Assembly (NCBI RefSeq): GCF_023566055.1
Contig: NZ_JALIQP010000004.1
Location: 186,001 to 250,000, forward strand
Length of the DNA: 64,000 nt
Direction: 5' to 3'
From: Halosolutus amylolyticus
Lineage (GTDB): Archaea; Halobacteriota; Halobacteria; Halobacteriales; Natrialbaceae
The notes beneath the pieces are model-generated. The model was not told where the DNA came from. It made no database searches and worked only from the letters and a program-made list of their open reading frames with translations. This document shows positions 3,287-53,728 of the stretch, in pieces. Both the position numbers and the translations under genes were made by a program. The stretch's first letter is position 1; each line of letters opens with the position of its first letter.

Positions 3287-4120
3287 TCAGAACTCGATCG
3301 ATTTGAATTCGCGGGCCTGGTTCTCGATCGCCTCTTCGGTCGGAAGACGTTCGAGGCTGGACGCGCCGAAGAAGCCGACGACGCCCTCCGTATTGTTCAG
3401 GACGTACTCGGCGTCGTCGGGCCACGCGATCGGGCCGCCGTGACAGATGACCAGGACGTCCTCGTCGACGTCCGTGGCCGCGTCGTGGTGAGCCTGCACT
3501 CGCTCCGCGGCCGTTTCCAGGTCGAGCGCCGTTTCGGCACCGATGTCCCCCGAGGTCGTCAGCCCCATGTGCGACACGATCACGTCGGCCCCGGCTTCGG
3601 TCATCTCGCGGGCCTGGTCCTCGCTGAAGACGTACGGGCACGTCAGCATGCCCTGTTCGGACGCCTCCCGGATCATGTCGACCTCCTTGTCGTACCCCAT
3701 GCCCGTCTCTTCGATGTTCTGCCGGAACTGGCTGTCCTCGTCGATGAGGCCCACCGTCGGGAAGTTCTGGACGCCCGAGAACCCGCGTCGTTTGAGGTCC
3801 TCGATGAAGACGTCCATCTGCCGGAACGGATCGGTTCCGTTGACGCCCGCGAGAACGGGCGTGTCCTCCACCACCGGCAACACCTGCCGGCCCATGTCGA
3901 GAACGATCTCGTTTGCGTCGCCGTACGGAAGCAGGCCGGCCAGCGAGCCCCGGCCGTTCATTCGGTACCGTCCCGAATTGTAGATGATCAGCAGGTCGAC
4001 GCCGCCGCGCTCGGCGAACTTCGCCGACATCCCCGTCCCCGCGCCGGCGCCGACGATCGGCTCCCCGCTCGATACGGTCTCGCGTAGCCGCGTCAGCGAT
4101 TCCTCGTGTGTGAATGTCAT
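3287..4120 (-). CDS. TIM-barrel phosphoenolpyruvate hydrolase-like protein (Tm-1 C-terminal half)
   Basis: The 277-residue protein belongs to the TIM-barrel signal transduction / PEP hydrolase-like family. It shows GAGAGTGMSAKFAERGGVD near the N-terminus, a GVNGTDPFRQM segment, FPTVGLIDE, and CHGGPI near the end. In plants and fungi the same fold is fused behind a UPF0261 domain; here the UPF0261 partner is a separate gene at 1612-2847. The start at 4120 is preferred over an ATG at 4156. A TATA-like box at 4163-4170 predicts transcription starting near 4138, downstream of the longer start. It is the first gene of a three-gene operon. Its real substrate is unproven. Confidence 0.9.
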   Translation of the reverse strand: MTFTHEESLTRLRETVSSGEPIVGAGAGTGMSAKFAERGGVDLLIIYNSGRYRMNGRGSLAGLLPYGDANEIVLDMGRQVLPVVEDTPVLAGVNGTDPFRQMDVFIEDLKRRGFSGVQNFPTVGLIDEDSQFRQNIEETGMGYDKEVDMIREASEQGMLTCPYVFSEDQAREMTEAGADVIVSHMGLTTSGDIGAETALDLETAAERVQAHHDAATDVDEDVLVICHGGPIAWPDDAEYVLNNTEGVVGFFGASSLERLPTEEAIENQAREFKSIEF

Positions 4121-40261: not shown

Positions 40262-40384
40262 AGCGATCGCTTTTCGAGTTAGTCTTCTAACTGTTTCGAT
40301 CCGTCCGACTACAGGCAGGTCCTGGACGAGCGCGCCCTGTCCAGCAAACCGAGCGATCGGATCCAGGATCTCTCTTGCCGCACG

Positions 40385-40566
40385 CTCGCTGGCGCTCGCG
40401 CGAGACCGACCAGGTTCTCCGCCCCCGATCGGTTTCGGCGTGGCAACCCCTCTTCGACTCGGGGCGTCTTCGAAAAGTGCCGGAAGGGCTCCGAACCGCG
40501 GAACGACTCACAGCGTTCGTCTTTCCTGACTTCACCTCGCTTCGCTCGGTGAAGACCACCGGGTTC
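40385..40566. repeat. Degraded tRNA-Met-end/hairpin repeat units (left part of array)
   Basis: The order is a hairpin with CTCGC/GCGAG (40385-40389 with 40400-40404), a spacer with AGGTTCTCCGCC, then a degenerate tRNA-Met 3' end TGCCGGAAGGGCTCCGAACC at 40478-40497. A second hairpin CTTCACC/GGTGAAG (40530-40536 with 40548-40554) is followed by ACCACCGGGTTC. The same order is seen at 41541-41693. Confidence 0.8.
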
Positions 40567-40757
40567 GGAGCGAACCGAGCATGCTTCTCAGCGTTATCAG
40601 TAGCCGGTAATATGAATTCTTTATTCAGAGTGTTTCCTGAAACGTTCGGCCGTTGGACCGGTAACTGGTTGAGCGACTAACCATGCCTGCTGTTCGTCGA
40701 TGCAAAAGGATTTCTCGCCCCAACAGACTTATTGCGCTATATTGCGTTCTATTACAT

Positions 40758-41078
40758 ATGCCAATCAGCATCGACCGATTCGACGAAGAACCCGTGGACG
40801 CACTCGATATCCAGGAAGGGACGCACCCGTATCGACTACTGCGATTCCTCGCGGCCCACAGCGATCAGGCGTTCACGCAGACGGAACTCCACGAAGCGAC
40901 CGGCATCAAGCGCGGGAGCGTCGGCGCTGCACTCTCCCGCCTTGAGGATCGTGGCCTCGTTCGCCACCGCGGCCGATACTGGGCCATCGCCGAGGACGAC
41001 CGTCTCGCCTCCTACGCTGCACAGACGAACGCCAGTTCCGCTTCGACGACGGACGACTACTACGGCGACGAGGAATGA
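40758..41078 (+). CDS. MarR-like HTH protein, probable antitoxin/regulator
   Basis: The 106-residue protein has a winged-helix core (PYRLLRFLAAHSDQAFTQTELHEATGIKRGSVGAALSRLEDRGLVRHRGRYWAI) and an acidic tail. It overlaps the next gene by 4 bases (ATGA), and that gene encodes a MazF/PemK-like protein. This is the arrangement of a type II toxin-antitoxin pair in which the HTH protein represses the operon. TTATTG about 30 bases upstream is the likely TATA-like box. The pair sits between tRNA-Met-derived repeats, so horizontal transfer is likely. Confidence 0.8.
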   Translation: MPISIDRFDEEPVDALDIQEGTHPYRLLRFLAAHSDQAFTQTELHEATGIKRGSVGAALSRLEDRGLVRHRGRYWAIAEDDRLASYAAQTNASSASTTDDYYGDEE

Positions 41079-41410
41079 CGGACGTCTACGAGCGCGGCGC
41101 GGTCGTAAAAGGCCCCGATCTTCTCGCGGACCACGACTACCGGCCATACGTTTGCCTGAGTGATCGCACACACCCGTTCCACGACGAGGAAGCGCTCTAC
41201 GCGGCGGCTACGACGACGCGACGGGCGGTTGCTATCCCGCTCACCGACGAGGACTTCATTTCGGGCGGTTTACCGAGGGAGAGCTACGTAAATCCGTGGA
41301 CAGTCGTCACGATTCGGCATGTCGACATGGAACGCGAAGAGGGACACCTTGTCGAGGCGACAACAGAGACAATCGCTACCGAAGCTGCTGGATATCTCGG
41401 TGTTCGCTAA
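41075..41410 (+). CDS. MazF/PemK-like protein, probable toxin
   Basis: The 111-residue protein has the beta-barrel pattern of MazF-type toxins: YERGAVVKGPDLLADHDYRPYVCLSDRTHPFHDEE, then AVAIPLTDEDF and a VNPWTVVTIRHVDMEREEGHLVE strand set. The usual GDVV and RP-x-VV pieces are only partly kept. If active, it would cleave RNA. It is translationally coupled to the preceding HTH gene. No experimental support is available; it could be a non-toxic relative. Confidence 0.7.
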   Translation: MTDVYERGAVVKGPDLLADHDYRPYVCLSDRTHPFHDEEALYAAATTTRRAVAIPLTDEDFISGGLPRESYVNPWTVVTIRHVDMEREEGHLVEATTETIATEAAGYLGVR

Positions 41411-41540
41411 GAGCGCCGTTTCCCATGGCTCAGCGCCCTTACGAACCCCCGATCTCTATTCAGAGGACAGACTGAATAAGGAAATCGCGCTACCAACTAC
41501 TGTTATCACTCGTCTTCGAATCGTGATGCCTGTGAGAAGC

Positions 41541-41693
41541 ATGCCCGGGGAGGGCTCCGAACCACGGAAAGACTCACTCCGTTCGTCTTTCCTGCCTTGC
41601 GCTCACGACGTTCGCGCAAGACCACCGGGTTCTCCGCCTCCCCGGCCATTTTCGGTATTGCCACTCGTCCTTGACTCGTGGCGTCGTTGAAAA
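41541..41693. repeat. tRNA-Met-end/hairpin repeat unit next to tRNA-Met
   Basis: It begins with a 23-base exact copy (41541-41563) of the tRNA-Met 3' end at 41693-41715. A leader GAAAGACTCACTCC and a hairpin CTTGCGC/GCGCAAG (41596-41602 with 41614-41620) follow. Then come ACCACCGGGTTCTCCGCC and a spacer, and the real tRNA follows. The period is about 152 bases. Confidence 0.85.
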
Positions 41694-41844
41694 TGCCCGG
41701 GGAGGGCTCCGAACCCTCGATCTCCGCATGTCCCAGGTCCGAGGCTCGGCAGTCCTCTACGGGACACGGAGGCTTCCAAGGCGTACCGCACCGAATCTCT
41801 GAACCCTATGAGTGCGGCGCTATGTCCAGCTAAGCCACCCGGGC
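41694..41844 (-). tRNA. Elongator tRNA-Met (CAT) with a 77-base intron
   Basis: Read on the minus strand, the 5' acceptor GCCCGGG (41838-41844) pairs with CCCGGGC (41695-41701). The anticodon stem CCGCA/TGCGG flanks loop CT-CAT-A-A, giving anticodon CAT. The T-arm GAGGG-TTCGGAG-CCCTC is canonical. An intron of about 77 bases (41730-41806) interrupts after position 37, where archaeal introns are excised at a bulge-helix-bulge. Haloarchaeal elongator tRNA-Met genes are known to carry such introns. The exons total 74 bases; CCA is not encoded. Confidence 0.93.
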
Positions 41845-53528: not shown

Positions 53529-53603
53529 GGGTTGGTGGTCTAGTCTGGTTATGACACCTCCTTGACATGGAGGAGGCCGGCAGTTCAAATCTGCCCCAAC
53601 CCA
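53529..53603 (+). tRNA. tRNA-Val (GAC)
   Basis: The acceptor GGGTTGG pairs with CCAACCC, with A as discriminator at 53603. The anticodon arm is CCTCC-TTGACAT-GGAGG, giving anticodon GAC for GTC codons. The T-arm includes GGCAG-TTCAAAT-CTGCC. No intron is seen and CCA is not encoded. It lies between trpD and a histidine kinase. Confidence 0.95.
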
Positions 53604-53728
53604 CTAATTTTGCGCCGAACAATTCCGTGAGGCACAAATTCGTTACGTTCGGGAGATTTGAACTAGACCGAGGTTCTGCGAGCGACGCGAGCTGGTTCTC
53701 GGGCGTAGTTCAAATCTGCCCCAACCCA
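53604..53728. repeat. tRNA-Val 3'-end duplication with large hairpin
   Basis: A 22-base exact copy of the tRNA-Val 3' end (53582-53603) recurs at 53707-53728. Within the interval, AGATTTGAACTA (53654-53665) is a perfect complement of TAGTTCAAATCT (53706-53717). CCGAG/CTCGG (53668-53672 with 53698-53702) extends the stem, giving a large hairpin that overlaps the repeat. Confidence 0.85.

Follow-up and report, generated by a model that had tools for sequence, protein, structure and literature searches.

Sequence analysis of a tRNA-Met repeat array interrupted by a TIR element and of related tRNA-end echo modules in Halobacteria

The window, that is the whole stretch of 64,000 nucleotides analysed here, corresponds to positions 186001-250000 of contig C4 of the Halosolutus amylolyticus genome (G000). 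It carries on the minus strand an elongator tRNA-Met (CAT) gene with an intron (41844-41694), for which "downstream" means decreasing coordinates. This gene was not called by ARAGORN and gave no Rfam match, evidently because of the intron, and it was matched in 60/60 of the relatives searched. Three copies of a unit of about 150 nt, all on the minus strand, were found behind the tRNA-Met; a wHTH/MazF-like gene pair interrupts the second, and the third is decayed. The last 21 nt of the tRNA (G53-N73, 41694-41714), named D1, are followed in unit 1 by a hairpin starting with a T-run, P0 (41651-41693; from the fold and from homologues), an inverted copy of the tRNA end, I (41628-41650; from inverted repeats I4/I15 and the fold), the hairpins P2 and P3 (41567-41625) and D2, an exact copy of tRNA nt 53-73 (41542-41562; from direct repeat and pattern search). 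In unit 2, the comparison with empty sites placed the first half of P0 at 41503-41541, where it is cut by the insertion, and the second half at 40584-40597. They are completed by I (40562-40583, placed from the sequence and from its row in the alignment of Met units), P2 and P3 (40500-40554, from an 85-nt repeat and the fold) and D3, a degraded direct copy of the tRNA end (40478-40497) belonging to the direct repeat family. Unit 3 (40380-40477), a 75% match to the unit, retains P0, I (40413-40431) and part of P2, and its direct copy is lost. The initial annotation had reported an exact repeat of 23 nt, 41541-41563 against 41693-41715, together with a degraded copy of the array; both were recovered, with a spacing of 152 for the former and as 85 nt at 40482-40566 matching 41548-41632 at 81%, with a spacing of 1066, for the latter.

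The hairpins that had been proposed in the repeat unit were borne out by folding. The minus strand of 41541-41689 folds at -72.8 kcal/mol, compared with -51.7 ± 4.1 kcal/mol for shuffled sequences (z=-5.2), and the long stem of the unit is formed by I and D2. Across 25 Met units, 97.8% of the cells were paired in 19 consensus pairs, and two-sided changes occurred in 11 pairs against a shuffle mean of 6.9, a value of 11 being reached in 0/500 shuffles; compensatory changes among these units also support P2 and P3. In this test, as in all the permutation and shuffle tests reported here, the sequences were treated without regard to their relatedness. Homologous units are present at the same site in many relatives, and G023 has two near-identical units at its tRNA-Met. 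In two genomes in which the tRNA-Met ends with GCCCGCCCCGGCCA, the unit is altered to match. In G035 and G008 (L105 and L106), the acceptor and T-stem of the tRNA-Met are changed (GGCCGGG...CCCGCCCCGGCCA) and the inverted copy of the downstream unit is changed likewise. We rejected the possibility that the Met unit is a multi-copy mobile element, since blastn of its own genome gave matches at this locus only. A sequence like CACTACTCAAATTCTTTATATGCCC, which may be the left end of integrated elements, recurs behind the tRNA-Met end (L013, L018, L019, L021, L025, L026 and L030) or behind the unit D2 (L008, L009 and L011).

The insertion that splits unit 2 is a 905-bp element (40598-41502, plus strand) with the ends CAGTAG...CTACTG. 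It lies within the P0 hairpin and is flanked by a 4-bp duplication, TTAT at 40594-40597 on the left and TTAT at 41503-41506 on the right, both defined by the empty-site comparison. Its terminal inverted repeats (TIRs) are imperfect and of about 44 bp (44-column alignment), with a score of 18 that was reached by 0/5000 shuffles. When the element was removed in silico, the flanks rejoined as a unit that aligned across the junction to the L005 and L017 units. Uninterrupted units at the same tRNA in relatives, for example in G023 and G006, agree with the initial proposal that the cassette interrupts a repeat array. The left end of the element retrieved similar ends from other haloarchaea, and a pattern search found CAGTAG-type ends in 22/61 genomes with a reversed control of 0. 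Sister elements with paired ends enclose 173-1091 bp, with a different cargo or none, and show an NTAN duplication in most cases. A copy in Natrialba taiwanensis (L347) is 88.8% identical over 914 bp, from TIR to TIR, with unrelated flanks; a target duplication can no longer be made out clearly in this copy, and the second gene contains a stop. The element thereby combines TIRs, a fixed-length duplication, recurrent ends and a bounded second copy, as do TIR transposons and MITEs. These sequence features show that the gene pair travels as cargo on a non-autonomous TIR transposon of 905 bp with NTAN duplication, inserted in P0 of unit 2, and the earlier idea that it had been captured by integration at the tRNA had to be given up. 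The TA-centred target allows the guess that the family is IS630/Tc1-like. On its own, a transposon-borne toxin-antitoxin-like pair is ordinary. In G001, of the same genus, a 1091-bp element of the same TIR family (L116, 441-1531) contains a different HTH-type gene, and such ends may therefore often carry a small regulator or toxin-antitoxin-like cargo.

The two genes of the pair, which the initial annotation had rightly placed between the repeats, are both on the plus strand and overlap by 4 nt. The first (40758-41078) codes for a winged-helix protein of the MarR type, antitoxin-like (Pfam MarR_2, E=3.2e-10), and the second (41075-41410) for a 111-aa protein that is weakly MazF-like (phmmer MazF6/MazF4, E about 1). 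No match to the 111-aa protein was found in Pfam, NCBIfam or PADLOC, and its predicted model (pLDDT 44.7) was too poor for a structure search. The pair has the form of small overlapping genes with a DNA-binding partner and is conserved in many haloarchaea. A toxin-antitoxin identity is plausible and is placed no higher, because of the weak MazF likeness and the unusable model. The nearest homologues, with identity up to 96%, are found in other genera and at other places, in line with the mobility that had been suggested for the pair; no homologue was found in G001. The pair is not bound to the CAGTAG-type transposon, most of its other copies being without these TIRs. Halopenitus persicus has a homologue of the pair (L351, from 2410) that begins some 200 bp behind tRNA-Val(CAC), a tRNA at which no module was found.

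Units of the same design were found behind many other tRNA genes. In these modules, D1 (tRNA nt 53-73) is followed by the P0 hairpin, the inverted copy I, one or more P2 hairpins and the direct copy D2, which is exact or near-exact and lies about 100 bases behind its own tRNA with no gene in between. The modules are always directly downstream of their tRNA and in its orientation. In four genomes, tRNAs were searched one by one for a copy of the own tail in the 330 nt downstream, allowing up to 3 mismatches over 19 nt; the filters left 28-43 tRNAs for each of the three relatives. Such copies were found at 20/46 tRNAs in G000, 12/43 in G001, 21/42 in G042 and 9/28 in G060 (28-50%, three families), the fair counts for G000 and G001 being 19 and 11 because one Asp match in each turned out to be another complete tRNA-Asp gene. 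The 3' ends of other tRNAs were found in 0/4716 comparisons with the same stretches in the four genomes (0/1608 in the own genome), and the upstream control of the own-tail search gave 4 matches. A second module of the window, on the plus strand behind tRNA-Val(GAC) (53584-53728), was detected by the own-tail scan and by a palindrome match (C4:239655-239716); it comprises the tRNA tail, P0, I (about 53645-53662), P2 and an exact D2 (53708-53728). The corresponding region extends over 53529-53728, with hairpins and the inverted copy before D2. Elsewhere in the window, ARAGORN reported on the minus strand (3817-3880) an undetermined tRNA with a 2-nt anticodon, which is probably false because it has no Rfam support.

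The borders of the modules are sharp. Over 52 units, D1 and D2 have a positional identity of 0.90-1.00 between G53 and N73, which falls to about the control level outside these limits. The inverted copy pairs preferentially with the D2 of its own tRNA (permutation p<5e-5, relatedness of the sequences being ignored), and P2 types are common to different tRNAs and to different families. Conserved GA-tandem hairpins are enriched behind D1 (44%) and D2 (34%), against 1-3% in shuffled sequences; a kink-turn reading of these hairpins was rejected, the 3-nt bulge being absent by eye. T-runs of at least 4 are found directly behind the tRNA in about one third of the module-bearing tRNAs. The palindrome GATTTGAA-N36..64-TTCAAATC was present in 14/19 sampled Halobacteria, with 1-12 matches per genome and a reversed control of 0, and 7/7 of its matches in the own genome are behind tRNAs. 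Outside Halobacteria, it gave eight single matches in 101 genomes, with the hairpin absent by eye. The search of the modules against the Rfam covariance models gave no match. For two P2 types, no viral carrier was found in viral_contigs (0 matches); plasmids gave tRNA-end fragments only and phages nothing. From these comparisons, the modules, which we call tRNA-end echo modules, clearly appear to be a feature of Halobacteria, each one matched to its own tRNA. They are apparently undescribed, as far as Rfam and the open-access literature go, no description having been found in the latter and subscription papers being outside this coverage. The initial description was in this respect incomplete, as it had overlooked the inverted copy in each unit, the fact that the cassette has TIRs and a target duplication, and the occurrence of such units at other tRNAs.

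The modules vary between close relatives. At Leu-CAA, G000 carries a module whose absence from G001 is precise, the sequence that follows D2 in G000 directly adjoining the tRNA in G001. At Ser-TGA, the array comprises five units in G096 (L358), with P0 and P2 types mixed, and two in its congener G047 (L359), and the combinations differ. Between genomes, D2 is 88% alike, the spacer 62% and shuffled spacers 54%, a contrast between D2 and spacer that is partly built in because the search rule favours D2. These cases indicate that modules have been gained and lost precisely and are able to form arrays.

A transposon-borne gene pair, echo modules and exchange at D would together give the best explanation of the whole, to which we attach an even chance. 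Its transposon part has against it that no autonomous transposase was found beside those CAGTAG-type ends that were examined. For the modules, we tentatively favour, at a little below even confidence, that D is an exchange core and that modules are exchanged by recombination at the tRNA end. They would join, leave and reshuffle via recombination between D copies. The conserved GTTC, located on the 5' edge of the T-loop, would be where the crossover takes place, and everything as far as N73 would be retained by selection because each event would rewrite the tail of a live tRNA; a module would therefore survive only at a tRNA whose tail matches. The I/D2 stem with P2 at its tip may be the folded single-strand form that gets recognised. 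A GTTC crossover with tail-restoring selection could account for both borders, the tRNA matching, the precise gain and loss, and the arrays. This reading draws on the own-tail copies in the four genomes against 0/4716 in the control, the G53 and N73 borders, the tRNA-specific inverted copy, the precise presence or absence at Leu-CAA, the mixed arrays of five and two Ser-TGA units in congeners, the P2 types common to different tRNAs and families, and the compensatory changes. It is weakened by the fact that the modules have neither a linked recombinase nor a known circular form, that an inverted copy is superfluous for a plain double-strand crossover and that the conserved GA-tandem loops equally fit an RNA role. 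A more specific form of it, an integron-like system at haloarchaeal tRNA genes in which a putative recombinase would insert, excise and shuffle gene-less modules at nt 53-73 through a folded single-strand site, rewriting live tRNA tails, seems unlikely. A folded single-strand site, as in integrons, would require an inverted copy specific to the tRNA, such as the modules carry. The core consensus of integrons is GTTRRRY; the modules do have inverted cores around a hairpin (I and D2 around P2), and their D begins with GTTC, off this consensus. The losses are also explicable by repeat-mediated deletion, as described in Haloquadratum, without any special enzyme (PMC3119063).

The main rival to exchange at D is an RNA trailer, which we regard as possible though doubtful. 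In a read-through pre-tRNA, I would pair either with tRNA nt 53-73, with P0 at the tip and the tRNA spoiled, or with D2, with P2 at the tip; D2 would act as a decoy end, protecting tRNA maturation or setting its timing, or as a mimic of the acceptor/T-arm helix for 3' processing. The constant position and orientation of the modules, the stable fold with its compensatory changes, the enrichment of GA-tandem hairpins after D1 and after D2, and an I that tracks each tRNA would all be expected of it, but the module is missing at the same tRNA in closely related genomes, D2 is exact even without pairing to I, and the T-runs at about one third of the module-bearing tRNAs may stop transcription before the module. 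Template switching at hairpins typically yields inverted and direct copies, and passive palindrome dynamics, in which such switching made the copies and slippage multiplies or removes them with no function or dedicated enzyme, would explain the presence of both kinds of copy, the array lengths that vary between congeners and the precise loss between direct repeats. Identical borders in 52 units and P2 types common to tRNAs and families are unexpected from random slippage, and we hold this explanation to be quite unlikely. The initial annotation had favoured scars of repeated integration, that is viruses or plasmids that came, went and left copies of the tRNA end; this reading is already weakened and now looks improbable. 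Direct copies of the tRNA 3' end, which are indeed present, are the usual trace of integration (PMC9897764, PMC8371274), and behind the unit D2 of L008, L009 and L011 lies an apparent left end of an integrated element, so that D2 may serve as an attachment site. Integration gives no reason for a tRNA-specific inverted copy or a common hairpin design, both of which the modules contain; it would have to affect 28-50% of the tRNAs, and SNJ2-type integrases have att cores of just some 13 bp, located at the acceptor end. An integrase remnant cannot fit in 90-150 nt. No integrase or remnant lies between the copies, unit 1 (152 nt) leaving no room for one and unit 2 containing only the TIR element with the gene pair, and none was detected by Pfam among selected ORFs nearby. 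The search for distal att copies of the elements behind tRNA-Met found none within 2 mismatches, and one 11-bp core at L210:7333. The copies are thus not scars special to tRNA-Met, being inverted as well as direct and present at many tRNAs of four genomes, and the att-like part of the earlier proposal is kept in play because recombination between copies remains likely.

The tRNA-Met array broken by a transposon is one case of this wider haloarchaeal feature. If the modules were functional, a large share of the tRNA genes of an archaeal class would carry an undescribed, structured element matched to the tRNA, with bearing on tRNA 3' processing, on the use of tRNA ends by integrating viruses and on how a repeat tracks the sequence of its own gene. 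The modules are directly testable in cultured haloarchaea.

Haloarchaeal MITEs that carry a passenger ORF are known, such as ISH2 (PMC3119063). The 905-bp element resembles them as a transposase-less TIR element on which an ORF can ride, with a fixed-length target duplication, and differs by its ends (CAGTAG...), its NTAN duplication and its wHTH/MazF-like cargo. With the tRNA duplications made by integrative elements, such as the tRNA-His island of Haloquadratum (PMC3119063) and those of SNJ2-type integrases (PMC8371274), the modules have in common that the 3' end of the tRNA recurs downstream of it as a direct copy. Those elements have kilobases with genes between the copies and usually occupy one or a few tRNAs per genome, whereas the modules are of about 100 nt, gene-less, with an additional inverted copy, and found at a quarter to half of the tRNAs. 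In Methanopyrus kandleri, about half of the tRNA genes are followed at 10 bp by a palindrome (PMC5217627). This is another archaeal case of a structured motif behind such a share of the tRNA genes, but it is one short common palindrome, without a copy of the own tRNA end, and reported in M. kandleri only. The attC sites and CALIN clusters of integrons, including those of Archaea (PMC9668308), are similar to the modules in their inverted core copies around a variable hairpin and in arrays that are gained or lost at a fixed end, and are distinguished from them in that the module units are gene-less, their core departs from GTTRRRY and their entry site is a tRNA.
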